A DNA stretch of 64,000 nucleotides from Ostrinia nubilalis (taxonomy: Eukaryota; Arthropoda; Insecta; Lepidoptera; Crambidae). Every line of letters starts with the position of its first letter. Position 1 is the stretch's first letter. Below the pieces are notes generated by a model. The model saw nothing but the letters and a program-made list of their open reading frames with translations. It was not told where the DNA came from and did not search any database. Below, piece after piece: positions 17,927 through 55,179 of this stretch. The stretch spans positions 5,339,501-5,403,500 of the forward strand of contig NC_087093.1 of the NCBI RefSeq assembly GCF_963855985.1, in the 5' to 3' direction. A program made the position numbers and the translations under genes.

Positions 17927-18186
17927 TGATTCTAGCGCTCGGCGGCCGCTACCGCGGCACGCTTCGCTCGCCTTCCTAACCTAACCTACTATTTTCTGCA
18001 ATACCTACTTTTTGCAACCATACTATTTTCTGCAATTCTTTGTTTTACATAAAATTCTTGTGAAAACCATGATCATATGCCTTATGCTTTGATTTGTGAG
18101 TAACGGTGGGTAAGTATGTGAAGTGTCAATTTGACCAAACAAATTATTTGGGATATAATATTTGGCAAAATAAAACATTTGCTATA

Positions 18187-18450
18187 CAGGGTGTTAGGTA
18201 AATGGGTATATGAGCCGACACTAGCCCATGTTAACATGGGCATATAAATGGTATGGTGAAGTCAGAAATTTGATATCATCATTTTAATTTTTTTAATCTT
18301 CATACAAAATAAATTTTATAAAATCCGATTTGTATGAAAAATGAAATAATTAAAATGAAGATATCAAATTTCTGACTTCACCATACCATTTATATGACCA
18401 TTTTAACATGGGCCAGTGTCGGCTCATATACCCATTTACCTAACATCCTG
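18187..18450. mobile_element. Palindromic MITE, CAGGGTGTTAGGTAAATGGG family, copy 1
   Basis: The ends are cagggtgttaggtaaatggg and its inverse cccatttacctaacatcctg, flanked by TA. Nearly the whole 264 bp is self-complementary around an AT-rich centre. Relatives lie at 20110-20310, 20313/27968 (split), 28620-28878 and 54932-55176. Confidence 0.9.
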
Positions 18451-20109
18451 TATAAACATTTGCCAAGTAAAATTTTGCCAAATGATAATTTGACCAAATG
18501 AATTAGTTGCGAAAAGTACAGTTGCTAAAAGTTCATTTGGGAAATGAAACTTTGGCGATAAGTTGTTTGCGAAGTGAAATTTGGCGAAAAGTAATTTGGC
18601 CAAACGGAAGGATACCCGTTCAAACTCATACTCTGCTGCGCAGGTTTTCTAATCATCTTAGCAACGCAGCTGCCTCGCGGTCTTTGCTGGAACGCAGTCC
18701 TAAAATATTATGCAGATATGCTGCTTAAATTCGTGCCACTGCTCGGCGAGGATTCGCGCTTAACCCTCATTATGATCCACCTGGATTTAATAACGCAGCG
18801 TTAGAATACACGACGTGCTTAATTCCAAGGTTTGTATCATAGAAACAAAGGACGTTACGGAATACGAGTGTGTTACTCAAAATGCATTGTTTTAAAATTT
18901 GACTTTCCAAATACAACGTGCTCTTTTTGATTTCTTTAACTAGTTTTTATTTATAGTAGGTAATTTCCGGAAAACAAAAGGAGCACGTTGTATAATTGGA
19001 TAGCTCAATTCGTAATAATGCAAAGTATGCCTTTGGAGCAGAAAAATATTAACTAAATCATTACGATAGGTCGTACTTATTTGCATAGCAGATGTTTTGC
19101 TCAAGGCAAGTTTTAATAAGCCTATAATATCATAGTCTACTAAAGCAAGACCCTCCTGAAAACTTTGACAAGTTAGCGCTCCTGCACACGACGCCGCTAC
19201 CGCGCCGCGCCGCGCCTTTGCATTTTTTAAACTCGGCCCAGTGTCTACGTCCAACTTCAGTTTGAGAGACAAGTACCTACTTCCCAAATCAACTCAAGAA
19301 TATCCCACAGGTATTAGAAAATGTCAATCCAAAGAAAGCTACCTACTTACTAAGTAATAAACTAAGTCTAAAGCTCACTAATTATTTGTAACAAGAATTC
19401 GATAGAGTACAAAAATAGTATAAAATATTGTTAGGTAAATAAGTAAAAGCGAAAGTTTGTAGATGGATGGCTGTTTGTAGATGGATGGCTGTTTGTAATT
19501 CTATCATGCAAAAACTAAGTACTAGACAAGTTTAATCAATCTTTACAGTTACATAGCTATTGATTTATTTTTGCTACTGCAAAGTCAAAATTAAATAACG
19601 GTAAGACTCGTCAGAATCAGTTAATCAACAACCAGTCAATATCTTTACATCGTTTTGTTATTTTTTTTAATTTGTAAAATTCTATTGACACGGACTTGTG
19701 ATACGATACGCAAGCATTACATTTTGGCTTAGTGTTTATTACAAGAGGGAAGAACAACTTTTGTCACATATTTATTTGTTTTCAAATGTAAATACATTAA
19801 AAAAATAAAATCTAGTTACATTAACAATCATCAATAAAATAAGCTTTTTTATTTATTTCTTCAGAAATAACGCTATTTCATTAAGATCTTATCCTTACTT
19901 AGAAACATCTCAGTTTGTTAATTAGGTCACAAACCCATTCCAAGTAACAAAGCTCTGTGGTCATAGTATTATTAGAGCTAATTTCCGACATAATAGTTAT
20001 TTCTGAGTTAGAGTATGTTTCCCAGAACGGTTCATTGCTAAGAAATCTCATCTCTCAGAAAAGTCGGAAAGCTGAAAAACAAATATACTACACCTCATCG
20101 TTGATTGTC

Positions 20110-20310
20110 AAACATGAGTTGCCGACTCATATTAGCGAAGCGATTTCATACAAATCTGATTTTATAAATTTTATTTTGTATGAACAAATGAACATTTAAA
20201 AAATTAAAATGATGAAATCAAATTTCTGACTTCGCCATACCATTTATATGCATAATAATATGTTAACATGGACTAGTGTCGGCTCGTATACCCATTTACC
20301 TAACACCCTG
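20110..20310. mobile_element. Partial copy of the CAGGGTGTTAGG MITE
   Basis: The right half is well conserved (ccataccatttatatgcata, ..., cccatttacctaacaccctg). The left half is decayed, with only a gccgactcatattagc-like trace near 20123. It abuts a second, split copy at 20313. Confidence 0.7.
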
Positions 20311-20974
20311 TAGATGAAAATTAATAAAATTAAAATGTTGATATCACTGACTTCACCATACCAATCCCGAGTAGCATTTTACTCCATTTAAGAGTTCACA
20401 TTTAGTTCCAATGTGTACTTAAAGCATTAGTACAGTTCACTCGTGATGTATAAGCTGTATTATTGCAATTAATTACACCTATACCTGTCTAAGGGACTTA
20501 TAGGAGTGTAGACTAGTGTAGAGTTATACTTTTATACGATTGTTGGTGTTATAATACTCTAACAACTATCCTTTAGTCAGCCGTCTGACTAAGAGCATTA
20601 TAGGAGGGTAGAGATACGGCAATCGCTGTTTAACGGCCTACTTGTACGATGTTATAGAGCTAGCATTTTAATAGAACACACGTGGTCATTTATAAAGCCA
20701 AAGGCTGTTATGTTTACTTGTTTTAGACTGTTATACAGCTAGTAGCTGTAGTAGGACTTGTTTGTGATAATTAAATAACCTTTTTTTACTATCTGTACAA
20801 AAGTGTTTCAATGGTTCGCATGTGCACTGTAGGCTGTTAAAAGGACTATATGTGTTGTCCATTAACATCAATAGCAGTTTATTTGTCCACAAGTACTACT
20901 CTTATTTGCTTTAAGCTGAACATGAATGTGAATGTGATATTCTATTACACTTTTCCCCAAGCCTGTTTTTAGTT

Positions 20975-21235
20975 GTTCATGGTGGTTCTGTACATGATGC
21001 AGAGGAAAATATTATGCCTGAACCTGAAAGTTCCCTTCAAAATATACAGATATCAGAGTGTGATGATTGCAGTTCTAGTGATAGTGAATACAATTTTGAT
21101 TTGGACAATTATTTATTTAACCTTTCGCAAAAAAATAAGAACATGGGCTATTGAAAATCGTATTCCTCATTCCGCTTTGAATAAATTGTCAGGCATAATA
21201 AAACGGGAACACTACCGTCTGATGCTTTAGGTATT
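20975..21235 (+). pseudogene. Decayed transposon ORF with a WAIENRIPHSALNKL motif
   Basis: Three frames together give an acidic segment (EENIMPEPESS...ISECDDCSSSDSEYN), then KIRTWAIENRIPHSALNKLS, then LPSDALGIHT, so at least two frameshifts separate the pieces. The order (acidic stretch, WA-x2-N-x-I-x-HSALN-x-L helix, LP-x-DA) resembles the N-terminus of uncharacterised transposon-encoded proteins I have seen in insects and cnidarians. That resemblance is from memory. I assign no function. Confidence 0.4.
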
Positions 21236-22935
21236 CATACTTGACTATTAGTAGCTGGGCTAGGCGATTTAACGGACATTAATATTTTTTATTGCGGATC
21301 TCTAAAATTTCAGTATTTGAAAGAATTAAAGATACACAATTGACCTGAACTAGGTACATCTTAAAGCTGTACATAAGTTCACATTAGAATAAATTTATAG
21401 ACATTAGCGCTGTAGTGGTACAAATGTGGAACTTCATATAGATAACAGCATTCTAACAGAACACATGTGAACCTAATATACGCTCACCGCATTAAATCGG
21501 AGTTATAACAGTTCACATAGCCGTATTTCATTTCCACCATTTTGTTCTACATAACCTAAAATATTTACCAAATAAATCTCCAAAATTAATGCAGATTTAT
21601 TACAAAATTCGCAGATAGAGCGATTGAGTTTTGGTTTCATGTTATAATTAATTACCGTAATATAATTATAATGCCAATACAATATCAAAAACTGAAAATT
21701 GTAGATTTCCTCTCAGCCAGATTTAAATATTTTAAAATGAATATCGCGTTTTTACAGAGGCGCGTAAATATTTTAGCTGTAAATATGTATACATTTCACG
21801 ATAAAGTTGCATTCCCAATGGCATTAACATTATTAAGTATTTAAAACCCGTGTTATTATTTGCATAAATGATTATCCGCCCGAGTTGTTTCCCTCTTGGC
21901 ACTCACGTACAAATACCAAAGTTATAGCGCGCGATGTTTTACCGCGAACCAGGAGTGCTGTCTGTGTCTCCCGTGACTGCCACTAGCCCGCTCCGCCGCT
22001 CGCCCCGCCTACGCACACTGCGCTCATAAACTCCGGCGCCCCTCGTCGGCCAGTCCGTCTCAGAAAGGCAAACGGTGCGCGCGTCACGAGCCGCGGGGCC
22101 GGCGCATTTTGTTTCTCACTGTTTTCTTTTGTCTTTTCTGTTTTCTAATTTGTAAAATCTACTTGTGTCACGTTTTTTTCAATTGTCTATAGTGAATAAA
22201 CCATTTAAAACCTACTTATACGCCTATAAAGTAATATTAAAATGTGGAAATAATTTAGGACACACGTGAACTTTATGTAGCATTGGAGTACTTTTGTCGG
22301 ACTTTATAACTTTGAAAGCTGTGCATTTAGCCACTTGTTACTCTTTATTACACTCACGTACGTTGTATGGTTCACACTGCGTCCCATATAGTGCCGTAAG
22401 TCAGCCTTAAGTCCGATGTTACTACTTAAACTGCTATTATAATGCTATTATACTGCTAATGTGTGCAAATTGCAAATTTTTCTGTGTGTGGCCACACTAC
22501 CGCTAACAGCTGATTTGAACTTGTCCCAATTTATTTACTGATTTTTATTATATTTAATATTGTAAAAGGTCTCTAAACTCATCACTGTTACTGTTTTATG
22601 TAATTATATGTGAAATATCGTTTAAATCTGTGTATTGCATTGTGTTTATGGTGCAAATTGTGCAAATACTTAGGACCGATTTGACAGTGCAATTTCGAAA
22701 ATATTACGTTGGATTTTGTTAACATTGTTCTATCTTTGGAAACAGGTACCTATTTGTTTTATATTTACAACAGTAGTGCATATTTTAGAAGCGAAATACT
22801 ATTAGTGTGACCTTATACTGTCACCCGCGTAAGAGGTTATACCTATTTACCTACAATTTTATTAACCTCCAATTATTGATCAATTGATCCTTTGGCATTT
22901 ACTTTCTAATACTTTATTATTTACCAAAAGCAACA

Positions 22936-24507
22936 ATGCTTACACGTAAAGCCTTTGCTCGCCGGGAGGAGTCCCAACTCCAACTGGCTTTGAGAGATTT
23001 GAAGGCAGCCAAAGACTTGATTGAGCAATTAAATAGGGAAAGAGAGGACAATGAGAGGGAGCTGATGGATGTGTGGGATAAAAACAAGCATTTAAAGAAA
23101 GAGATGGCTGAGCTGCACACCAACTATGAGACAATTGTAGAGGAACGGAATAGGCTACAATTAATCATTGACGGGTTTGGTGAGTGCAATGAAGAGTACG
23201 TACACAACCTCAGACGTATGACCATCATGAAACAAGACCTTTATGATGCTCACAGCCATATCGAATTAATGGAAGCTGAAAGAGAAGCCTGCACAGCCAC
23301 CAAAACCCAAATCATGTTTGACGAGTTAGTCGGTAGTGCGCCCAGCCTGACCCAAACTGCATCTGACAAACAATTAATTACCATAGACCTAACTTGTGAT
23401 AATACTTTAAACAATACTCCTGTATGTGGTAAGATTGTCAGATGCAGTAAAAATAAATTTAAAAAGTATGTAAAAATTAGTAATTATATTAAAAAAACAA
23501 ATAAGTTGATTAAAAAACAAAAATGCTTATACAACAAAGTAAACTATATAAATGAGAGACAGCGTCTAAAGAATGAGCTTGACATATGTTCCACAATGTT
23601 AGAGAATAGTGTACTGAAATATGAACATGATGTCGAAAACCTAGAATATAAATTATGTAATCTTAAGAAATCTTTGAACACAATGTCTGAACGGTATCAA
23701 TGTACAAAAAAAGAGTGTGATGAACATTTCCAGGCTTTGAAAAAATTTATATCTAATTGCAACTGTCAAAATTCTATCCTATTGGATGAATCTTGTACAG
23801 ATAGTTTTCAGTCTGGTTGTGAGTCACCACCTACTCTAAACACCCTAAACAAAGACTACTGTCCTAGGATATCACACACATTTACCAGCGGCTCCCCAAC
23901 TAAAAATATTGAAAAAACCAACATAGTAATGTTCAGTGATGAGTTAGGCAAAAATATGGGCCAACTTATTAATAGTTACTTGGGACAAAGTGTAATCAAC
24001 CATTGTTTACCGGGTGCTTCCTATTTACAATTTATGAGAAAAATAACAAATTATTCGTTCTCAATAAATACCACATTAGTAATTTTAATAGGAAATAGGG
24101 GCAATGTAGGCAAAAAAGACCTACTAAATATTTTTGATAGCTTATGTTTACTTAATGTAGATAAAATAATTTTGTTCACATTCCCCTACAGTAGAAGCTT
24201 GCCACAGGAGGAAAATAATTTAAGATATAAATTGAATTTGACATTGAATACACTGACATATAATCAATGCAAATTCCATGTAATTGACATTAACAATTAT
24301 TTAAAAAATAAATGTTTATTGACAATAGATAAATATAATTATCTAAATAAATATTGTAAAAGACGAATAGCGAATTCGCTATCATATTTTATTAAATATT
24401 TAGCCATTAATTTGGCTAGCCAAACTGCTTTTATTGAGCAGAACATGGATGTTCGACCCTTGGAATCTGTTCCAAATCATAATTTAAATTACATCGTAAG
24501 ACAATAG
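22936..24507 (+). CDS. LINE ORF1: coiled-coil and SGNH-esterase-like protein
   Basis: The ORF is intact, 523 residues. Residues 1-80 and about 205-265 are heptad-rich and charged, consistent with coiled coils that multimerise ORF1p on RNA. A short Cys-rich stretch (NCNCQ) follows near 280. From about residue 328 it resembles the esterase-like domain of CR1-type ORF1: MFSDELG (Ser334, block I), GNRGN (386-390, block III) and a C-terminal DKYNYLN segment where an active enzyme has D-x2-H. The His position appears to be Tyr/Asn, so catalysis is doubtful. There is no CCHC knuckle. The ATG follows ccaaaagcaaca. Its survival while ORF2 is broken may reflect recency. Confidence 0.8.
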   Translation: MLTRKAFARREESQLQLALRDLKAAKDLIEQLNREREDNERELMDVWDKNKHLKKEMAELHTNYETIVEERNRLQLIIDGFGECNEEYVHNLRRMTIMKQDLYDAHSHIELMEAEREACTATKTQIMFDELVGSAPSLTQTASDKQLITIDLTCDNTLNNTPVCGKIVRCSKNKFKKYVKISNYIKKTNKLIKKQKCLYNKVNYINERQRLKNELDICSTMLENSVLKYEHDVENLEYKLCNLKKSLNTMSERYQCTKKECDEHFQALKKFISNCNCQNSILLDESCTDSFQSGCESPPTLNTLNKDYCPRISHTFTSGSPTKNIEKTNIVMFSDELGKNMGQLINSYLGQSVINHCLPGASYLQFMRKITNYSFSINTTLVILIGNRGNVGKKDLLNIFDSLCLLNVDKIILFTFPYSRSLPQEENNLRYKLNLTLNTLTYNQCKFHVIDINNYLKNKCLLTIDKYNYLNKYCKRRIANSLSYFIKYLAINLASQTAFIEQNMDVRPLESVPNHNLNYIVRQ

Positions 24508-24509
24508 AG

Positions 24510-26531
24510 GATAACTCTGGCATACAAAATTCGGGTACAAAGAAATTTAACGGTTTTAATTTAGTGCATCAAAATGTACAAGGCTTCTCCGGCAAAGACT
24601 TGGAAATTGAGTTATTTATCCAAGAATTGAATATTCATGTCTTATGTTTAACGGAACATTGGCTCAGGCAATATGAACTAATGCTGAGCATTAATAGTTA
24701 TAAGCTTATTAGTTCATTCACTAGAGAGTTAGCTATTCGTGGAGGGTCACTAATATTAATCAATGATAAATTAAAATGTAAAGAGCGTAAAGATATTGTA
24801 TCTCTCTCTGTTGAGCGAACTATTGAGCTGTCATGTGCAGAACTGGACGACTATGTTATTGTATGTGTATATAGACCCCCATCTAGTAACTATGAATTAT
24901 TTGAAACCACAATGGAAGAGGTACTTAGAAGAGTGTGTAATAGTTCAAAGAAAGTAGTTGTATGTGGAGACTTTAATATCAATATAATAGAAGATTCCTC
25001 TCTTTCAATACGGTTTTTAAATTTATTCAAATCTTTTAACTTGTTAAATCTTTTCTCTGAACCAACTAGGGTGACTCCAACATCAGCTACTTGCTTAGAC
25101 AATATATTCTGTAACTGCTTAGTGCTAGAGAAATCAATAATAAATTTTGTTAATTCTGATCATTGCGGTCAAATAGCGTCATTTCAACACCATTTTGTGC
25201 CATCGAGCAAGGAAATAGAATATAGACCAGTCACTGCATCCCAGAAAGACAAATTTAAATCTCAAATATCTAATAAGGTCCCACTTTTGCATTATTTTAA
25301 CTGTAGTATAAATATTTTATATGAGCAATTATTTGAATTAATTAAAAATGAGTTCAATAAAACTTTTCCTAAGAAAACAATTATTATTAAAAACAATAAA
25401 ACTAAATTCAGTGACTGGGCTACAGTAGGTATTTATATTAGTAGGAAAAAAATGTTTGAATTATATGGTAGAAAAGCCTATAGTAGCGACCCGGACTTTA
25501 TAGAATATGTAAAAAAATACTCAAAAGTTTTTAAACAAGTTTGTACTATGGCAAAATCTATTTACATACGTGACAAAATTAAAAACTCTGGCAACAAAAT
25601 TAAAGCTACTTGGAATTGTATTAATAAAGAAACTTGTAGAATTATATCTCGGGATGACACATTCGCATTAAAAATTGATAATAAGTATATTAAATGCAAT
25701 GATAAGGTAGCAAACGCATTCGAAGGTTACTTCTCAAATGTACCAATCATAACAACAAGCAATCTTAATTCATGTTCATATCAGGCAATGTCTCTTCTCG
25801 AGGGTTGTGTTGATGTTTGCAATAGCCCATTAAAATTTAGACAAATAGACCCCATAGTTATTATAAAAACTTTCAAAGAACTAAATATAAAAAAGACAGA
25901 GGATATATGGGGCATATCAACAGACATAATAAAACCCATCATTCCTCTTATAGCTCCCCATTTAGCTCATACCTTTAATGAATGTATTAACGAAGGTCAG
26001 TTCCCTACCCTGATGAAACATAGTAAAATCATACCATTATTTAAAGCAGGAGACAAAAGTGACCCATCCAACTTTAGACCTATATCGATACTACCTGCGC
26101 TCAGTAAAATATTTGAAAAAATTATTTTCAATCAACTACTGTCTCATTTTAACTTAAATAAACTGTTTCATGAAAAACAATATGGGTTCACAAAAGGGAA
26201 AAGTACGACCGATGCAGGGGTTGCTCTTATCAAACACATTTTCGATGCTTGGCAGGAGAAAAAAGATGCTATTGGTGTATTTTGTGACTTATCGAAGGCG
26301 TTTGACTGTGTTGATCATCAAACTCTGTTATTTAAGCTAGAACATTATGGCGTATCAGGCAAGGCCTTAAGCCTATTACACTCTTACCTCTCAGACAGAT
26401 TACAAAAAGTAAATATTCACGGAACTAACTCTTCGGGCGCCCCCCTAAAAATGGGAGTGCCCCAAGGCTCAATACTGGGACCATTGCTCTTTCTGATTTA
26501 TATAAATGATCTACCTTTTTATTCAAAGAAC
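24510..26531 (+). pseudogene. LINE ORF2, 5' part: endonuclease and fingers/palm of RT
   Basis: The frame is open from the end of ORF1. The first recognised residues are FNLVHQNVQGF (GTG at 24564 taken as residue 1). Endonuclease motifs follow: LTEHWL, YRPPSS, GDFNIN (135-140) and SDH (198-200). RT blocks follow: FRPISILP, QYGFTKGKSTTDA, DLSKAFDCVDH (KAFD 578-581) and GVPQGSILGPLLF (PQGS 633-636). Homology stops after YSKN (residue 656), just before the expected FADD catalytic block. No ATG precedes the endonuclease motif in this frame, so translation would need reinitiation after ORF1 or a lost start. The ORF runs on to a stop at 26645 through unrelated SINE sequence. Confidence 0.8.
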
Positions 26532-26540
26532 CTTTTTTTA

Positions 26541-26731
26541 AAAAAGATTATTAGTAATTTGTTATTACACAAATTACTAATACTCCCGTTAGCCCCTCGT
26601 ACTAAGCTAAATATGCTTGTGTCACGAGTGAGCTCACCACAATAGTCGAGCGGCGGCGGGGACCGAACCCGCGTTCCCCGGATCACGAGTCGGCCAGTCC
26701 GACCCCTTCACCGTTCGGCTATCGTGGCTTT
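26541..26731 (-). mobile_element. tRNA-derived SINE inside LINE ORF2
   Basis: On the minus strand from 26731 it reads agccacgatagccgaacggt (A-box-like) ... cgcgggttcggtccccgcc (B box), then a body containing ctcactcgtgacacaagc and a tail with a 13-bp hairpin (26550-26581, loop tattac). This is a pol III tRNA-type head followed by a non-tRNA body, as in lepidopteran SINEs. It lies between the QGSILG and WFTTNN segments of the LINE RT. Confidence 0.75.
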
Positions 26732-27493
26732 TGGTTTACAACTAATAATTTGCTATTAAACGCAAAAAAAACTAAATGTTTAAAATTCACTATGCCTAAT
26801 GTCAAACAAGTTAATACTAATATTACAGTAAATAATGAACGCATTGAACTGATAAACTCTACTGTCTTTCTAGGTATTACCCTAGACTGTAAATTACAAT
26901 GGGGCCCCCATATTGCTGCCTTGGCGGGAAGACTTAGTTCAGCTGCCTTTGCGGTGAGAAAGATCAGAAACTTGACTGATGTTGAAACAGCAAGGCTTGT
27001 ATATTTTAGTTATTTTCATAGTATTATGTCTTATGGTCTTTTACTGTGGGGCTCAGCAGCAGACATAGAATCAATTTTCATTTTACAGAAAAGAGCTGTC
27101 CGGGCAATATACGGTCTTAAACCACGTGACTCGCTTAGAGAAGTTTTTAAAGAAATCAATATATTGACTGTGGCTTCGCAATACATATTTGATAACATTA
27201 TGTATGTCCGTAAACATATACATTTATTTACTAAGAAAAGTGACGTCCACTCATTTAACACGAGACATAAGAATAAACTTGCTGTTCCATCATTTAGGTT
27301 GCATAAGATAGGTAATTCATTCTTGGGGAAATGTATTACCATATTTAACAAAATACCACACAACCTTGTCGAATTGCCAATAAACAAATTTATGATACAT
27401 ATAAAAAATACCCTTATGTCCAAAGGGTACTACAAGGTTCGAGACTATATTGATGACAAGGATGCGTGGTCAGTTCAGTCTGCACATATTTGA
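26732..27493 (+). pseudogene. LINE ORF2, 3' part: RT thumb and C-terminus
   Basis: It resumes at WFTTNNLLLNAKKTKCLKF, then FLGITLDCKLQW (RT thumb block), then SYFHSIMSYGLLLWG and LQKRAVRAIYGLKPRDS, the usual C-terminal region of CR1/Jockey ORF2, ending at TGA 27491-27493. It is in a different frame from the 5' part (offset +2), and roughly 30 residues including FADD are absent. No start codon belongs here; this is the continuation of one broken ORF. Confidence 0.8.
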
Positions 27494-27970
27494 TGTACTT
27501 AAATTTGACTATTCTTACCGTTAGATAATTCCTGGCAATAAGTGGTGACTGAGTTTGTTCCGGCGTTTCTTCTCAGCACTTGCCATATGTTTGTCTCGAA
27601 GCGCTGGTAGGGCCCAAAAGATAAGGAGACATGTAAAGTGCCCCATAAGGGCTACCTTTTCTTTTTTTTATTATTTTCTTGACGTTCATAAGTGCCACTT
27701 GTGGTCTAAACTGAATAAATATTTTTGATTTTGATTTTGATTTTTTGATAATGTACAGCCATAGTGAACTTAAGGCTGTCTAATTTGTGCCCAAACTGGT
27801 TCTATAAAAGCATTATAGCAAGCTATACAGCTCGTATACAGCTGACATACACAGCTTGTGGAGTACATGTGAACGACTAGTAAACTCTTAAATGGAGTAA
27901 AATGTTACTTGGGATATGCATAATAATTATGTTAACATGGGCTACAGCTAACCTAATCTAACACCCTGTA

Positions 27971-28617
27971 TAAATAGTTAGTTGTAATTATTTTTATAAA
28001 AATAAAAGAGCGCTTACTGTTACAAAAACAACACATCGTCCGTTTATTACTGTGTCACATTCGCGACACCCCCGACTTTTGCATGTCGAGCGCATACCGA
28101 GATTTGAATTTCGAAGGAAAGCTCGCGTTTCGTCCGTTTATATGAAGTAACAATACTGTATACCTAATAGATAGTATGTATTACCGTGCCTCTCTCTGAT
28201 CCAGTGCTGTTGACAGATCCTTAATTTTTTTTTAAATCTAGTAGTTTTTAATTTTTCAGCCAGAGTCACTCTAGATTCTTTCTTAGTAAAATTGTGTAAC
28301 CTTTTTTGACATATCCAAGACCTGACCATATTTAAAAAGAAAAAGAAGACTTTGACATTAAAGTGTCATTCTCGACAATGCGTTAGGGGTGGTAAGCATT
28401 GCACCGCCTATGTCACGGTAATACTATCATACAGTATTGTAACTTCATATAAACGGACGAAACGCGAGCTTTCCTTCGAAATTCAAATCTCGGTATGCGC
28501 TCGACATGCAGAAGTCGGGGGTGTCGCGAATGTGTCACAGTAATAAACTGACGATGTGTTGTTTTGTAAACAGTAAGTGTTTTTTTTTTATAAAAATAAT
28601 TACAAGTAAACTATTTA
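27971..28617. mobile_element. Foldback element with about 215-bp arms
   Basis: The arms at about 27971-28191 and 28404-28617 are inverse copies: one contains cacccccgacttttgcatgt and the other acatgcagaagtcgggggtg, and both carry agctcgcgtttcgtccgttt or its complement. The loop is about 210 bp. The inner ends share caatactgtat...tattaccgtg. MITE copies of the CAGGGTGTTAGG family abut both outer ends, so the whole locus is symmetrical from about 27914 to 28680. No coding potential. Confidence 0.8.
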
Positions 28618-28619
28618 TA

Positions 28620-28878
28620 CAGGGTGTTAGGTAAATGGGCTTATAAGCCGACACTAGCCCATGTTAACATTGTATGTAAATAGTAGGTATGGTTGGTGTA
28701 GTCAGTGATATCATATTTTTTTAATTTTCATACAAAATAAAATTATTAAAATCAGATTTGTATGAAAATTAAAATGATTAAAATGCTAATATCAATTTTC
28801 TGACTTCACCATACCATTTATATGCACACGTTAACATGGGCCAGTGTCTGCTTATAAAGCCATTTACCTAACACTCTG
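28620..28878. mobile_element. CAGGGTGTTAGG MITE, copy flanking the foldback
   Basis: It starts cagggtgttaggtaaatggg and ends cccatttacctaacactctg-like, flanked by TA. Its centre is palindromic and close to the 18187 and 54932 copies. Confidence 0.9.
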
Positions 28879-28879
28879 T

Positions 28880-31050
28880 ATAATAAATCAAGCATTTTGT
28901 ACGCCTCAGTCGAGGCGCATACATTTTACGGTCGCAAATTTATAATATTTGTCACTAAATCTTAACACAAATATATTTTTTTAGTTAAATCTACTAATGA
29001 CAAGACAACATGCATTTTTATCCTATTTCATTCACAAAGTATTTTGTTTGTCAAAATAAAATAAAAAATTACAATCACAAAATACATTCACAAAACTAGA
29101 TAGAAATTCTTAGTAGGCAGATGTAGTGAAAATAGGGTCTGCAGGTGGGCAGCCCTATCGCATGTTGTCATAGGGTGACGTACCGCGCGGCTGTTGACAT
29201 TTATTTAAAAAATATGGCCGAGTTGGAATACTGTATAGATAGTATTACCGTGCCTATGTCTATGTTTATGTTCCACGCGAAAATATGGAGGTAATATAAA
29301 TAATTAATTTCTCAGCCATTTCTTGATGGATTTCAAGAATAACTTCACCGGCTTTAGTTTTGGTCTATATTTTAATCCCATTCAGTGAAATCTAATGTTT
29401 TCAACATCACGAAACTTGTCCATTGTATAATATTCTAAGCAAATCCTACCTAATTAATAGACAAATATTTCGGAAACAACTAGGTACACCATCCACGACT
29501 TACTAATCAGAATTTCAATAATTACTCTTGAGACAGAATACAATTCGTCGGCCGAACAAGAAGTGCTTCTCAAGCAAACTCTGTTACTCTGGACTAAGCT
29601 TAATTGCTGGTTCAGATAACGGATAATGGTTTTCTAGTTTTGTAGTTAAATACTGTTTTTGCTCGTTCGTGACCTTTCACTGAGCTGTTGGATTTAAGGC
29701 TAAATAGGATTGTTGTAAATCGACTTCACGGGCCAATTTATTTTAATTGGAAATGGCGCAATCGTGAACTTAATTCGCTTAACATCTTCAGTATTAAGAA
29801 ATCATACTCCTATTCTATGGAAATATTGAATTATCTCAAAACCTTTTTTTTTTTTCATTGAAGTAATATTACTACGTAGTACATTATAACTCAATGTTTT
29901 TTTTAAATAACATAAAATAATTATAAGAAGTTAAAAATTATTGAAAAACTTGAAGTTTCCAAATAAATATTAAATTGATATATTATATTAGTTATTATGC
30001 TCTATGTCTACGAATTTCATCAAATAAATATCCTACGAAATTATTATTTCCAATATTACATAATTATTCAATATTATATTCAATGTATAAGCTTGACTCT
30101 TCGAGAGACACAGTCTTCTTTGGTTGTTTGGCGAGATTCTAATTAGAAACAAATTATAACTTCTGAACCCGTCAAGTTGAAGGTCCACGTGGAGTGAAAA
30201 TATGGGCATATTACACCAGCAGTTAGAGCAAGTTCTACTGAAACATAACACAAGCGGCATGCAATGAATAAGCCAGTGTGGGTCCGTGTTATGCGAGCGG
30301 GTGCGGTGAAATTCAGTATAACGGTAGCTCAACTTGAATCGGTAAACTATGCTCTTAGCCATTGTAATTCGGACTTTGTAATGCTATTCGCTTTGGTCAA
30401 AATCAAACTATTGGCATTTCAGCTCAGCTTCAAGTAGCAATAATGATAATCGACCGATAAAGACTGTAAAAATTGAAAAAAAAAGTAAAAATGTTATGAA
30501 ATTTAAAAATTATTTACTTGTGATTTAATGTCATTTTTTTCATACAAAAATAATTACGTTTTAATTGATAAGAAAATACGAACATTGCCAGAAGTGGAGT
30601 TAACAGTAAAATTAAGATGTTGTAGGATATCTTTGCTTGCAGCACGAAACAATAAAAATACATCATTGTTACATTTTCATAAAATATGTTGAACCACCGT
30701 CTAAGCTAGAACAAGCTTAGAACTCTGTTTACAATCTTTTATTCAGCTTCACCTGTCCCGGTGTCTTTCTGTATCATAAAATTTTAGACGCTTCCCAGAG
30801 TTTAAATAAAATGTTGTATACGCAGGTTACCTTTTCCTGAATAGCAATATACAATGAATTTTTGTGCAGGGCTCATGATGCAGATGGTTGCTAAAGTATC
30901 GTTTGTACCTATTAAATTATAATGTAGTCTAGCGTTACTTTTCTGTCTTACCTGGTTCTGGATGCTTAATTACCTGGTTACAGCTACTTTACGAGAATTG
31001 CCAAATTATGGGTATGTATGCACATGCTATAACTGTTTTTTTTTTGTCCA
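28880..31050. other. Rest of the large intron, little recognised
   Basis: Around 29225-29255 an actgtat-agatagtattaccgtgcc motif repeats the inner-arm end of the foldback at 28.2 kb. Otherwise this is AT-rich intron ending in the tttttttgtccacag acceptor of exon C. Confidence 0.45.
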
Positions 31051-34059: not shown

Positions 34060-35520
34060 TAGGGCTTGCAAAATCGGATAGTTTTCAATTCCGGAACAGA
34101 TTTCCGATATTGGGCACTCAACTCCGGAATTCCGGAACTAGTTCCGGAGTTGGTTAAAAAAAGAAAGCGCCACCCGACAAACATGTAGGTACACGTATGT
34201 GGCATCCACTTCAGGACCTTGTCCCATCGGCCGTCTGTTCTACGTACTATGTGCCCTGCCCATTGCCACTTCAGCTTGCAAATCCGACCGCTATGTCAGG
34301 CGACTAGTAATCTCCACATTTCTGGTTCGATCTCGAAAAGAAACACCGAGCATTAGCCCTCTTCATAGCACGCTGTGCGACTTTGAGCTTATTATAAGGC
34401 CTATTTATAGAGAGAGGCCACGTTTTCAAAACATAATGTCATCACTACTGGTAACACTCACTAATTGTAGACTTTCGTCTTTGAGTACTGAGGTGTTTTG
34501 GTTGAAAAGATGTTATGTAGTTTCTCGTACGCTCCCCAGCCGAGTTGGATTCGACGTATTATAACGTAATATAGAATCGCCCTCGTGCTCAGCCAGGCTC
34601 AAAGACCTTCTAATAGTCCAAGAACGCCAGTCATAATGGCAAGTTAGACTCTTCGGTCTTCTGTATAACCTGCCGTAGCGTATAGATGTGGTATATGGTA
34701 CTGTTAACCTTTTCGATAACCGGCTTCCTCGAGAGGCTATAAGTCATCGAACCTACGCGCGAGACTATTCGTGATGACTCTCAAAAACAGCTTGTAGACA
34801 TGACTCAGAACCCAGATGGGCCTGTAATTCCTTAATAAGGCTTTTACCCCTGTCTTGAAGAAAAACACCACTACTCCTCTGTTCCATGCCTCTGGCATTA
34901 TTCCCTGGAGAAGACGAAGTTACAGAGTCTCTGAAGGACTTTCAGTATCGGTTTTCCACCCGCCGCGATCAGAAGCTCCGAGGTTATTCCATCATCACCC
35001 GGTGCCTTGTTGTTTTTTAGTTGTATGAGAGCCATCCTAATCTCGTATAGGCTGATGTCCGGGATATCTTCGATATATTGTCGAGTTAGCTTAGCTCTTG
35101 GTGGAACTATCCTGTGGTTGAGCTATTAACAGGTTAGGTGACCGTGGTATATAGCTGTCCATAAAAACTTTTCGATCTCTCCCAGAACCCTTTGTTGATG
35201 TTACATTACCGTCCGCTGTCTTTAGCTTCGTCAGCTGGCTTTGCTAGAGTTGTCTCTTGCGAACATTTTGGAGCTTTGATTCTTCTCTATCGCCTCTTTA
35301 ATACTATTAGTAATAAAATTGCGAATACATGACTGTCTCGAGGACTTCCTTATAGAAGGACCGATTTGGATAAAAATCATTTTGAAAACTTAAAATAATT
35401 TATGAAAAATTTCAATATCGGAATGCGATATTGGCTTCAGTTCCGGAATTGAAATATCGGAAAACACCTATCCGGAATTCCGGAGTTACGAAATTCCGGA
35501 ATTCCGGTATTCAAGCCCTA
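34060..35520. mobile_element. hAT-like element with exact 8-bp target duplication
   Basis: TTAGAACG flanks both sides (34052-34059 and 35521-35528). The ends are tagggcttgcaaaatcgg and, inverted, tagggcttgaataccgg. The first and last 100-180 bp carry repeated ttccggaatt / ttccgatatt motifs, like transposase-binding subterminal repeats of hAT elements. The middle is occupied by a minus-strand RTE-type LINE fragment rather than a transposase. Confidence 0.85.
34190..35260 (-). pseudogene. RTE-type LINE endonuclease/RT fragment inside the hAT element
   Basis: Minus-strand translation with several frame changes and stops gives NNKAPGDDG-like text, then GIMPEAWNRGVVVFFFK, LLRNYRPIWVLSHVYKLF, ARRFDDL and near the end LGVSLRDRTRN, KLKWQWAGH-like text and RRTDGRWDKVLKW. 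These are landmarks of the lepidopteran endonuclease-reverse transcriptase family (RTE-like). The catalytic DD block is not readable. It is truncated at both ends and long dead. Confidence 0.7.
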
Positions 35521-46720: not shown

Positions 46721-48129
46721 CCCTTTATAATTCAACAACTATGATTTCTTTAAAAAGTTGATTTTTTAATAGGTTTTAGTAAATAACTAAACACGTATTT
46801 TTTATTTTTGTTATTTTTTAATTATGAAAGTAACAAAATTACAAAATAGGGAGTGTGACATATCTGTTACACTGTCTTAAAAGCGTTTCATACGTCTTAA
46901 TGTTTTCTTTAAGACGTATGAAACGCTTTGAAACAATTGTTTTGTTTGTTGTAGCATAATGCTACGCCCCACTTTTCACATAATGTTTGTGATACGCCAG
47001 CGCAGTTAGGGTACTTGCAACGAATCCTCTTTTCTGCCCATACAGGCCAATGCCCTACTTGGTCCTGTCGCACAGCTATCGGAGGGACATATTGGGCTGG
47101 ACCTTTTCGTTTTTTGGCCTGAATTTCAGGTTCAATGGTTCGCCGTGTTGTGTTCGCTTTGGTACCAATTTTGCACAATATTGTAGCAATCTCTTCGCGA
47201 AAATCTGCTGAAGACAACAGCTGCGCATCTTGCGGGTTATTCGCCTTGCGTACCCTTTTATATAAAATCCAGGCATTAGACATGACAAGGTCCAAGAAAT
47301 TTTTTTCCAGGCGACTGTGGATATCTCCGATTCTTCTACACTGCCAACATACTCAACCGAGTAGCGATTCGTTGTAAGTTTTTCTTTCTCCATCGTACAT
47401 TCAGTTTAGGCTTGCTTTGACGACGAGCTGATGGTCCTGGCTGAGAAGAAGATTCTTTGGTAGCTGAAGGCTGAGAAGTACTTACATTGTGCTCTAAGTT
47501 CTCAATAATATCATCGATATCTAATCCTTCAACCACTTCAACAGCATCATCTTCGAACGGGTGCTCCAGATCTGGAATAAAGTCAGGGTCCACAACGCTG
47601 TCGTCATCATCTTCATATCCGTCCTCGCTGACCTCATAATCAAAGAGATGTTGCTCAATGTCTTCTTCTCTTAGACTCCGAGAAGCCATTCTGTCAAATA
47701 ATAAAACAAAGTTCAATGTACTGCACTAAGGGAACATTACAACGCAATGTAACAGAAATGTCACAAACAAATATTCGATGAATTTATCAAGAATTACGAA
47801 AGATTATGCGTTACTAACAACAAATAGTCATAATCATAAACTTACCTACTAGATTATACAACAGCTTCGTAGTTTACTTCGATATCGTATTTTTTTTCGA
47901 TTTTTCCATTTACGACTCGCGAAAGGTTCTTACAAATTGGCGGGAAGTGACTTTCGTCCAACTTTTGATACAAGTAACGCCATCTCGTATGCACAAAAGG
48001 CACTAAAATGCATAGAACGGTTTGTCACCGTCGTGCGACATTGATTTAAAATAGAATAAAATTTATGTTTGGAATTTTATGACGAAGTAATTGGTTTGTA
48101 ACTGTTATGTCACACGGTGATATAAAGGG
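46721..48129 (-). mobile_element. piggyBac-like element, internally deleted
   Basis: TTAA lies on both sides (46717-46720 and 48130-48133). The terminal inverted repeats start CCCTTTATA and end TATAAAGGG. Subterminal gtgtgacatatctgttacac at 46854 echoes atgtcacac near the other end. At 1409 bp it is shorter than autonomous piggyBac-like elements, in line with a missing transposase centre. Confidence 0.9.
46909..47689 (-). pseudogene. piggyBac-like transposase remnant (N- and C-terminal parts only)
   Basis: Reading on the minus strand, ATG at 47689 starts MASRSLREEDIEQHL, then a very acidic region (EDDDDSVVDPDFIPDLEH), then KPKLNVRWRKKNL. This resembles the acidic N-terminus of PGBD transposases. 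In another frame (from about 47330) it continues HSRLEKNFLDL, VMSNAWILYKRVRKANNP (the usual end of the catalytic domain) and a Cys-rich tail RCKYPNC...LCEKWGVALCYN...CFKAFH, the C-terminal zinc-binding domain. About 250-350 residues, including the DDD/DDE catalytic core, are missing at the junction near 47330-47350. Confidence 0.85.
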
Positions 48130-52568: not shown

Positions 52569-52772
52569 ACTAGCTTTTGCCCGCGGCTTCACCCGTGTGA
52601 AATTTAGTGTCACAGATCGGCATAAATTATAGCCTATATGTTAATCTGGGTTACAAACAATAATACTGTAAAGTTTCAACAAAATCCGTTCAGTAGTTTT
52701 TGCGTGAAAGAGTAACAAACATCCAGACATCCAGACATCTAGACATCCAAACTTTCGCATTTATAATATTAT
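52569..52772 (+). repeat. RTE-like 3' tail beside the foldback
   Basis: It starts actagcttttgcccgcggct and is a close relative of the repeat at 473-667. The tail contains a degenerate repeat (acatccagacatccagacat). A TA-targeting foldback sits at its AT-rich 3' end. Confidence 0.75.
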
Positions 52773-53338
52773 ATTATACAGGGTGTCCCGTAATGTAACG
52801 TCAAGCCGGAACTGGGTGTTGAGGCAAGTTATGCTGGTTATCAGAAAAATATTAAAAAAAATCTATGTGGCATATTTTCAAAATAATGGGCATTTAAAAA
52901 AAATCAAAAATTTTTACTCCAGGTGACGGTCTTTTTACTCGGGTTGCCACAAATCTTCACTTTTTCCAAATTTTTTTTTGTTATGTAACCCTGAATAATG
53001 CTTCTCTAAATTGTTATCAAAATTACAAAACCAGCTGCTATAACTTGGATGAAAAAAATACATTATTCCCAAAAAAATTTTCAAAATAAAAATTTTTCCT
53101 AGTTTAAACTGACTGTACTGAAAAAAAATGTACTACGCGAGTGTGGCAAGTGACGTCATAATTTGGCGCATTTAGTAAGGATTCCAAAATGGTATAACAC
53201 TTGGTAAATTCTTGCTGCAATCTACCTTAGTTAAAAATTATTATTCTAATGTGCCCAAAATTCAAGTTTCTGGCTTAAATGAGGTGGAGAAGCCATTTTA
53301 AAAGGTATGAGCGAAACGGAGAGGGCCATCTTACCAAG

Positions 53339-54052: not shown

Positions 54053-54931
54053 GAATTTTGGGCACATTAGAATAATAATTTTTAACCAAGGTAGATAAAG
54101 TTAAAAACGGGATTATTTCCAAAAAAAACAAAAATTGTCGACAATTACAGCAAGAATTTACCAAGTGTTATACCATTTTGGAATCCTTACTAAATGCGCC
54201 AAATTATGACGTCACATGCCACACTTGCGTAGTACTTTTTTTTTTTCAGTACAGTCAGTTTAAACTAGACAAAATTTTTATTTTGAAATTTTTTTTGGGA
54301 ATAATGTATTTTTTTTATCCAAGCTGGAGCAGCTGGTTTTGTAATTTTGATAACAATTTAGAGAAGCATTATTCAGGGTTACATAACAAAAAAAAAATTT
54401 GGAAAAAGTGAAGATTTGTGGCAACACGAGTAAAAAGACCGTCACCTGGAGTAGAAATTTTTGATTTTTTTTAAATGCCCATTATTTTGAAAATATGCCA
54501 CATAGATTTTTTTTTATATTTTTCTGATAACCAGCACAACTTGCCTCAACACCCAGTTCCGGCTTGACGTTACATTACGGGACACCCTGTATATTATTAT
54601 TATATTAAAATATTAAATATTAATATTAATAAATATTTAATATTAAGTAGGATTTACACCGCGAAGCCATGAAAGAGTGCTGAAATGTTTGAATTGGGAT
54701 TATTAAAATTTAATCTGATTCATGCTATTTTAAAAACAAAAGTATCTATACCTACCTACGGATAGTATTTTCGCATCACATTTGTATGTAGAGCAATCAA
54801 AATCCAGGTTTAATTTCAATGTGACTATCGTGTTATTGTTCAATTCAGCTAAATAATTTTAGTCAGCTGCAAGCAATATCTATTATCAAATGCATTTCGA
54901 ACAACCACAGCGGCGCGTAAACGCCGATATA

Positions 54932-55176
54932 CAGGTTGTTAGGTAAATGGGTTTATAACATAATATGCATATAAATGGTATGGTGAAGTCACAAAATTGA
55001 TACTTATCATCATTTCAATTATTTTAATTTTCATACAAATCTGATTTTATAAATTTTATTTTGTATGAAAATTAAAAAATATTAAAATGATGATATTCTG
55101 ACTTCACCATACCATTTATATACATATGTTAAAATGGGCTAGTGTCGGCTTATAAACCCATTTACCTAACACCCTG
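54932..55176. mobile_element. CAGGGTGTTAGG-family MITE, downstream copy
   Basis: The ends caggttgttaggtaaatggg and cccatttacctaacaccctg are flanked by TA. It is self-complementary through most of its length, and about 343 bp downstream of the large foldback. Confidence 0.9.
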
Positions 55177-55179
55177 TAA

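Follow-up and report, generated by a model that had tools for sequence, protein, structure and literature searches.

Probable successive insertions in a half-MITE of Ostrinia nubilalis: a CACTA/TRC-type element holding a solo LTR, a CR1-like LINE and a tRNA SINE

Where mobile elements lie inside one another, which of them entered which, and how far does the nesting give their order and age? This question is raised by a locus of Ostrinia nubilalis, contained in a stretch of 64,000 nucleotides (the window; positions 5339501-5403500 of contig C6 of the 495-Mb genome in which copies of the elements were sought). A first-pass annotation had read positions 20313-28880 as a four-level nest, namely a short interspersed element (SINE) in a CR1-like long interspersed element (LINE) in an unknown element with terminal inverted repeats (TIRs) in a miniature inverted-repeat transposable element (MITE). 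The four levels are borne out by genome copies, but a fifth insert, the solo long terminal repeat (LTR) at 21923-22227, had been missed, and 28616-28880 is a separate, uncut MITE outside the nest. The locus is best explained by successive ordinary insertions, first the TIR element into the MITE, then LTR and LINE into the TIR element and finally the SINE into the LINE, and to this explanation as a whole we assign a probability of about 0.9. Nesting of younger in older elements has been used earlier for relative age in mammalian genomes (PMC2517846); the logic is the same here, applied to a single locus instead. The features are listed in Table 1.

Table 1. Features of the nested locus, in positions of the window
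Feature	Position	Strand	Description
CACTA-superfamily (TRC-type) non-autonomous TIR element	20366..27913	+	defined by genome copies, 2-bp duplications and sibling alignment
Left TIR	20366..20399	+	CCCGAGTAGC..., 33/36 matched counting from 20364
Right TIR	27880..27913	-	...GTTACTTGGG
Transposase relic	20972..21226	+	residues ~49-135 of a 666-aa relative, frame-broken, without catalytic domain
MITE A	20144..20312	+	middle and right half of CAGGGTGTTAGG MITE, without left half; abuts MITE B
MITE B, left piece	20313..20365	+	cut half-MITE, including 2-bp target duplication AT (20364-20365)
MITE B, right piece	27914..27968	+	starts with second AT
Solo LTR	21923-22227	+	305 bp, AAAGT on both sides (21918-21922, 22228-22232)
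CR1-like LINE	22463..27748	+	both open reading frames (ORFs); TAATGT flanks (22457-22462, 27749-27754); 3' tail of TTTTGA units
LINE ORF1	22936..24507	+	523 aa; helical N-terminal half, possible esterase-like C-terminal half (low-confidence model)
LINE ORF2	24483..27493	+	endonuclease and reverse transcriptase (RT), interrupted at 26535-26731
tRNA-type SINE	26535..26731	-	A and B boxes, hairpin, T-run, short A-tail; replaces 105 bp of LINE

The inverted ends, described earlier as 31 bp long, match at 33 of 36 bases, against 23 in the best of 60 dinucleotide shuffles. A query made of the left 337 bp gave 350 candidates in the genome; the 40 matches scored, the window's own included, are all 99-100% identical, and 24 of them start exactly at 20366, 6 one base earlier and 10 two bases earlier, at the start of the query. 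The right-end query gave 1157 candidates, of which 40 were likewise scored, again with the window's own. Twenty sibling stretches were fetched, and both ends were recovered by script in 18. The script sought window-like ends, so that the sibling termini, CCCAAGTA...TACTTGGG, were themselves selected; the flanks were not. All 18 siblings are bordered by identical 2-bp flanks (AT, TT, TA, AG, CA, CG, TG or AA; AT in the window), and their genomic flanks differ from one to the next. The cut points 20365 and 27914 given at first are thus exact, with genome copies starting at 20366 (CCC) and ending at 27913. That the repeats belong instead to the MITE or to the LINE, with no separate TIR element between, was the reading by which the first-pass annotation had said it could be overturned. 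Nothing was found in its favour, and it is next to impossible given where the scored left ends begin, the different flanks of the siblings, the 39 of 40 scored right ends that lack the LINE, and the MITE copies that run uncut through the break point.

Once the LTR and the LINE are removed, each with one copy of its duplication, the window element measures 1946 bp, close to the length of its family (about 1.96 kb; 13 of the 18 siblings with both ends span 1.91-2.09 kb). These 13 siblings (1914-2094 bp) were aligned, and the remaining five were excluded for length. Pairs of them are on average 99.27% identical; in 1951 columns, 4 substitutions are private to the window copy. The family is young and non-autonomous. 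An old age for the window copy, suggested by its differing TIRs and broken transposase, was rejected, as siblings of 99-100% identity have the relic too and largely the same difference between their TIRs. Siblings L032, L034, L045 and L047 contain further insertions of their own, roughly 0.7 to 3.6 kb long.

The element need no longer be called unknown, as its transposase relic matches insect proteins. The relic has its nearest matches in proteins from Spodoptera exigua and Chilo suppressalis, at 82-83% identity across roughly two thirds of the query. It occurs as two stretches with a frame step in five of six siblings examined; in L047, which is interrupted, the first stretch is shorter. Thirty transposase relatives were picked from the search lists, mostly the longer ones and 7 of them already marked PF02992; Transposase_21 was matched by 19 and DUF4218 by 19 (Pfam, E<=0.01). 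One relative, P0003, is weak in Pfam (Transposase_21 0.038, DUF4218 4.4e-4, both below curated cut-offs). Its structural model, built from a 30-sequence alignment with a mean confidence (pLDDT) of 83, matches RAG1 and Transib transposase structures with a best E of 2.8e-9, and all 32 matches in PDB at E<=0.001 are RAG or Transib, a likeness to the RAG1 core. The CCC terminus is found in the window copy and in all 18 siblings with both ends. The TIR starts with CCCAAGTA or CCCGAGTA and does not show the plant-type CACTA core, while its first 11 bases agree with the published Tribolium TRC terminus at 10 of 11 positions on the left and 9 of 11 on the right. Among the 734 CCC-starting 11-mers on both strands of the window, 5 score at least 9 and 1 scores 10, both element ends included.

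A published account relates SmTRC1 and its animal kin to CACTA elements; they end in CCC, contain a Transposase_21 domain and make 2-bp duplications, the last observed in 7 of the 14 SmTRC1 copies analysed (PMC1636069). The TRC elements treated there (SmTRC1, Tribolium, Aedes) resemble the window element in CCC termini, 2-bp duplication and Transposase_21-type transposase. They differ from it in that the window family is about 1.96 kb long and has a transposase fragment only, and in that its TIR leaves the Tribolium sequence after the first 11 bases. On the strength of termini, duplications and relic, the element is filed as a non-autonomous member of the CACTA superfamily of the animal TRC type. 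The window copy has no intact transposase, only the fragment of residues ~49-135, and because the catalytic part is absent the element was presumably mobilised in trans.

The MITE that received this element was indeed cut, as first described, but it was not a full copy. Only its right half is present (20313-20363 and 27914-27968), directly after the half-copy 20144-20312; the three full CAGGGTGTTAGG MITE copies in the window lie elsewhere (18183-18455, 28616-28883 and 54928-55178). When 20313-20363 is joined to 27914-27975, it aligns with seven MITE halves of the window that are uncut at that point, over 87-112 columns at 70-84% identity and with one 3-bp gap at the cut. All eight MITE ends printed, from the three full copies and the two half-copies, are adjoined by TA, in agreement with a TA duplication around inverted repeats. 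MITE A is 83% identical to 55029-55178, and its left half was not found in the 344 bp upstream, where the best match has E 0.13 over 13 bp. The two adjoining half-MITEs may be an old tandem duplication, because both share a short insertion without counterpart in the other six alignment rows. Tc1/mariner-type MITEs of moths (PMC9033116) resemble the window MITE in length (about 250-270 bp), inverted repeats and TA flanks. A palindromic element with arms of about 190 bp, 93% matched, fills the gap (27969-28617) that separates the end of MITE B from the full MITE at 28616-28883, and its inverted match extends into both adjoining MITE ends. At 18138-18508 a full MITE is central in another palindrome (83% self-inverted), beside 15-bp repeats of TTTGGC type.

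Two inserts lie directly in the TIR element, and their ends were set from sibling copies, as earlier guesses from the flanks alone had led nowhere. The first, 21923-22227, is absent from all 13 aligned TIR siblings. It has 15 matches in the genome, its own included, four pairs of which lie 5280-5288 bp apart from start to start, a spacing that would suit the paired LTRs of a complete element. The ends read TATAGCG...CGCCTAT rather than TG...CA. Siblings have AAACT where the window has AAAGT, a change that probably preceded the LTR insertion in this copy. Assignment of the 305 bp to the 5' untranslated region of the LINE was rejected, as the 13 siblings lack it and it has paired genome copies of its own.

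The second insert is the LINE, whose presence inside the TIR element stands as first reported, with its start corrected to 22463. The empty site CTGC/TAATGT/ACAGCC is found in 13 of 13 aligned TIR siblings, and the LINE junction occurs in only 1 of the 40 scored right-end matches, the window's own. ORF2 carries APE and RT domains (Pfam RVT_1 1.4e-25, Exo_endo_phos 2.2e-10), and TTTTGA-like tail units are found at the end of the window copy and at most of the 16 printed sibling ends. Among 120 RT relatives listed of 215, all 10 given with an organism are from Lepidoptera. The LINE is very young. A query of 26240-26534 gave 292 candidates, and the 40 copies scored, own included, are all 100% identical after rounding, the 39 others equal to each other and 5 bits below the window's own. 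In the 2800 columns for which at least 10 of 19 siblings have sequence, 3 substitutions are private to the window LINE, and an independent protein, P0004, differs from its ORF2 at 6 of 910 residues. ORF1 gave no convincing match in Pfam or PDB, and its single-sequence model (pLDDT 41) is too poor for a structure search, so that the esterase that would favour CR1 is no more than a possibility. An esterase-type ORF1 is assigned to only two vertebrate groups in one account (PMC4120745) and is reported from many animal phyla in another (PMC3905857), where ZfL2-1 stands for the CR1 clade; inserts of ZfL2-1 have 5-bp duplications (PMC4245944). Non-LTR retrotransposons of the CR1/L2 type as there described (PMC3905857, PMC4245944) share with the window LINE two ORFs, APE and RT domains, a short repeat tail and, as far as the window copy goes, a short duplication (6 bp). 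The window copy differs in having lost the FADD motif. A second LINE relic is probable at 34707-34907 on the minus strand, with a weak RT match (E 2e-4 with P0004, 2e-6 with P0005).

The RT gene of this LINE is in turn interrupted by the SINE, as first proposed, with the correction that the SINE sits in a deletion. In place of the 197-bp SINE, 17 of 19 LINE siblings have exactly 105 bp; L091 and L099 are rearranged there. In a second comparison both anchors of this interval were in range for 18 of the 19, and 16 of the 18 were identical. The lost stretch encodes 35 residues, including the RT motif FADD, and because this motif is lost the window LINE is taken to be dead. The A and B boxes of the SINE were recognised by their usual consensus. 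Its head scores 19.7 bits against the Rfam tRNA family (E 0.13), below the gathering score of 29, with the box motifs present. A tRNA gene at this site was considered and rejected, ARAGORN having found none there. Of 3411 candidates in the genome, 40 near-full matches, own included, are 98-100% identical, and in the 183 columns compared with 29 siblings no substitution is private to the window SINE. Lepidopteran tRNA SINEs HaSE1 and HaSE2 (PMC3272025) likewise have a tRNA-like head with A and B boxes, and no obvious duplication was noted in 2 of 7 HaSE2 elements; compared by description only, the window SINE differs in its T-run and A-tail end and in the lack of duplications above chance in the sample.

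That sample consisted of the best-scoring 30 matches (L051-L080) and is not random. In a strict scan, duplications of at least 6 bp were found in 1 of 30 copies, own included. A looser scan, from which L056 was dropped because its tail could not be parsed, found them in 3 of 29, against 10.5% of 1406 mismatched flank pairs, and found duplications of at least 5 bp in 5 of 29, against 14.2% of mismatched pairs. Single copies such as L068 may carry a true duplication. Three of the 29 siblings sit in repeats of which an uninterrupted copy exists, with overlaps of 6, 2 and 2 bp (+/- ~2) and no deletion. The sampled copies thus have no duplications above chance, and the 105-bp deletion is not their rule. 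It is possible, though we would bet against it, that this very young and abundant tRNA-SINE family integrates without target duplications and sometimes deletes target DNA, 105 bp in the present case. Alternatively, the SINE was inserted normally and a later, independent deletion took the 105 bp of LINE together with one duplication copy. The three copies in repeats, which show no target deletion, would agree with this, as would the short A-tail of the window SINE (7 A; 28 of 29 siblings have 10-60, and the tail of the remaining one could not be parsed). Such a sequence of events is nevertheless unlikely: the insert covers a full-length SINE from end to end as matched in siblings, the siblings also lack duplications above chance, and two events are needed where one is simpler.

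The nesting places the MITE before the TIR element, the TIR element before LINE and LTR, and the LINE before the SINE, and leaves LINE and LTR unordered. To this extent the age order read from the nest in the first-pass annotation holds. It does not extend to the landing of the TIR element in this MITE, since the nesting dates the LINE against the TIR element and not against that event. LINE and solo LTR may already have been inside the TIR element when it jumped, the composite moving as one. Cut-and-paste elements carry whatever lies between their ends, and some siblings, such as L047 (5.5 kb), combine a large insert with intact ends and 2-bp duplications, though they perhaps received it later; the private substitutions of the TIR copy and the LINE also overlap. 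A composite jump is nonetheless very unlikely, as the 39 other scored right ends all lack the LINE junction and most known moves, judged from the 13 of 18 siblings of 1.91-2.09 kb, were made by the short form. The simple order is likelier, short of proof, because the LINE junction is seen in the window copy alone.

Several observations weigh against successive ordinary insertions as told here. The nesting would also be compatible with a composite jump. The MITE flank requires a 3-bp deletion besides the AT duplication. The empty sites are known from copies elsewhere in the same genome, none of them orthologous. The 6-bp LINE duplication was not seen as a family rule: of 10 siblings with a readable 5' side, all 5'-truncated, one had no recognised tail, and 1 of the 9 tested (L093) has a plausible duplication. 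The window SINE has no duplication, so that its junction may have suffered a deletion afterwards. Finally, private substitutions fail to separate the inner three elements: rates are 0.205% (0.056-0.525) for the TIR element, 0.107% (0.022-0.313) for the LINE and 0% (0-2.0) for the SINE, with 95% Poisson limits, with no difference between TIR element and LINE (Fisher test, p = 0.46).

The MITE alone is clearly older, with 16-30% divergence from related copies in the window. Alignment to other copies, proposed at first as a means of dating, sets the MITE apart and leaves TIR element, LINE and SINE together, and the locus dates the families only weakly, the three inner ones all being very young with overlapping confidence limits. 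In Heliconius the mutation rate is about 2.9e-9 per site per generation. At this rate, which may not be that of the host, the TIR copy would be about 0.7 and the LINE about 0.4 million generations old, with limits spanning an order of magnitude or more.

The following course of events would account for the locus. The half that was left of an old MITE flanked by TA would have received the CACTA/TRC-type element by cut-and-paste, moved in trans by a transposase presumably encoded elsewhere, and a staggered cut would have left the AT duplication that is seen at its two ends. An LTR retrotransposon would have entered the TIR element, leaving a 5-bp duplication, and then probably collapsed to the solo LTR, as its paired copies suggest. 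Either before or after it, the CR1-like LINE would have entered, to judge from its 6-bp duplication and TTTTGA tail, by target-primed reverse transcription. Last, the tRNA SINE would have been copied into the RT gene, 105 bp of which are missing in comparison with the siblings; the plus strand of the LINE ends in CCTTT at the break and could have primed on the A-tail of the SINE.

Searches of wider scope added little. Literature searches with the element sequences returned unrelated papers only, scans of viral contigs by pattern and protein gave no locus, and 14 matches to an 18-mer TIR pattern in prokaryote contigs are taken as chance. Elsewhere in the window, an inverted repeat of about 460 bp and 95% identity is formed by 52762-53221 and 54144-54604, and two minus-strand ORFs at 46909-47725 recall the ends of piggyBac transposases but have no match in Pfam.

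All kinds of element at this locus are already known, and the locus shows a commonplace arrangement at good resolution: a base-level record of five element types in which genome copies reveal what was inserted and what was lost. It documents recent amplification, in one genome, of a non-autonomous CACTA/TRC element, a CR1-like LINE and a tRNA SINE, and a SINE whose arrival cost its host LINE the catalytic motif. For general biology this is ordinary; the one lead for specialists is the SINE family without detectable duplications. Should its integration truly be free of duplications, this would point to a partner enzyme, or a cleavage of the second strand, unlike the usual staggered cut of LINE type.

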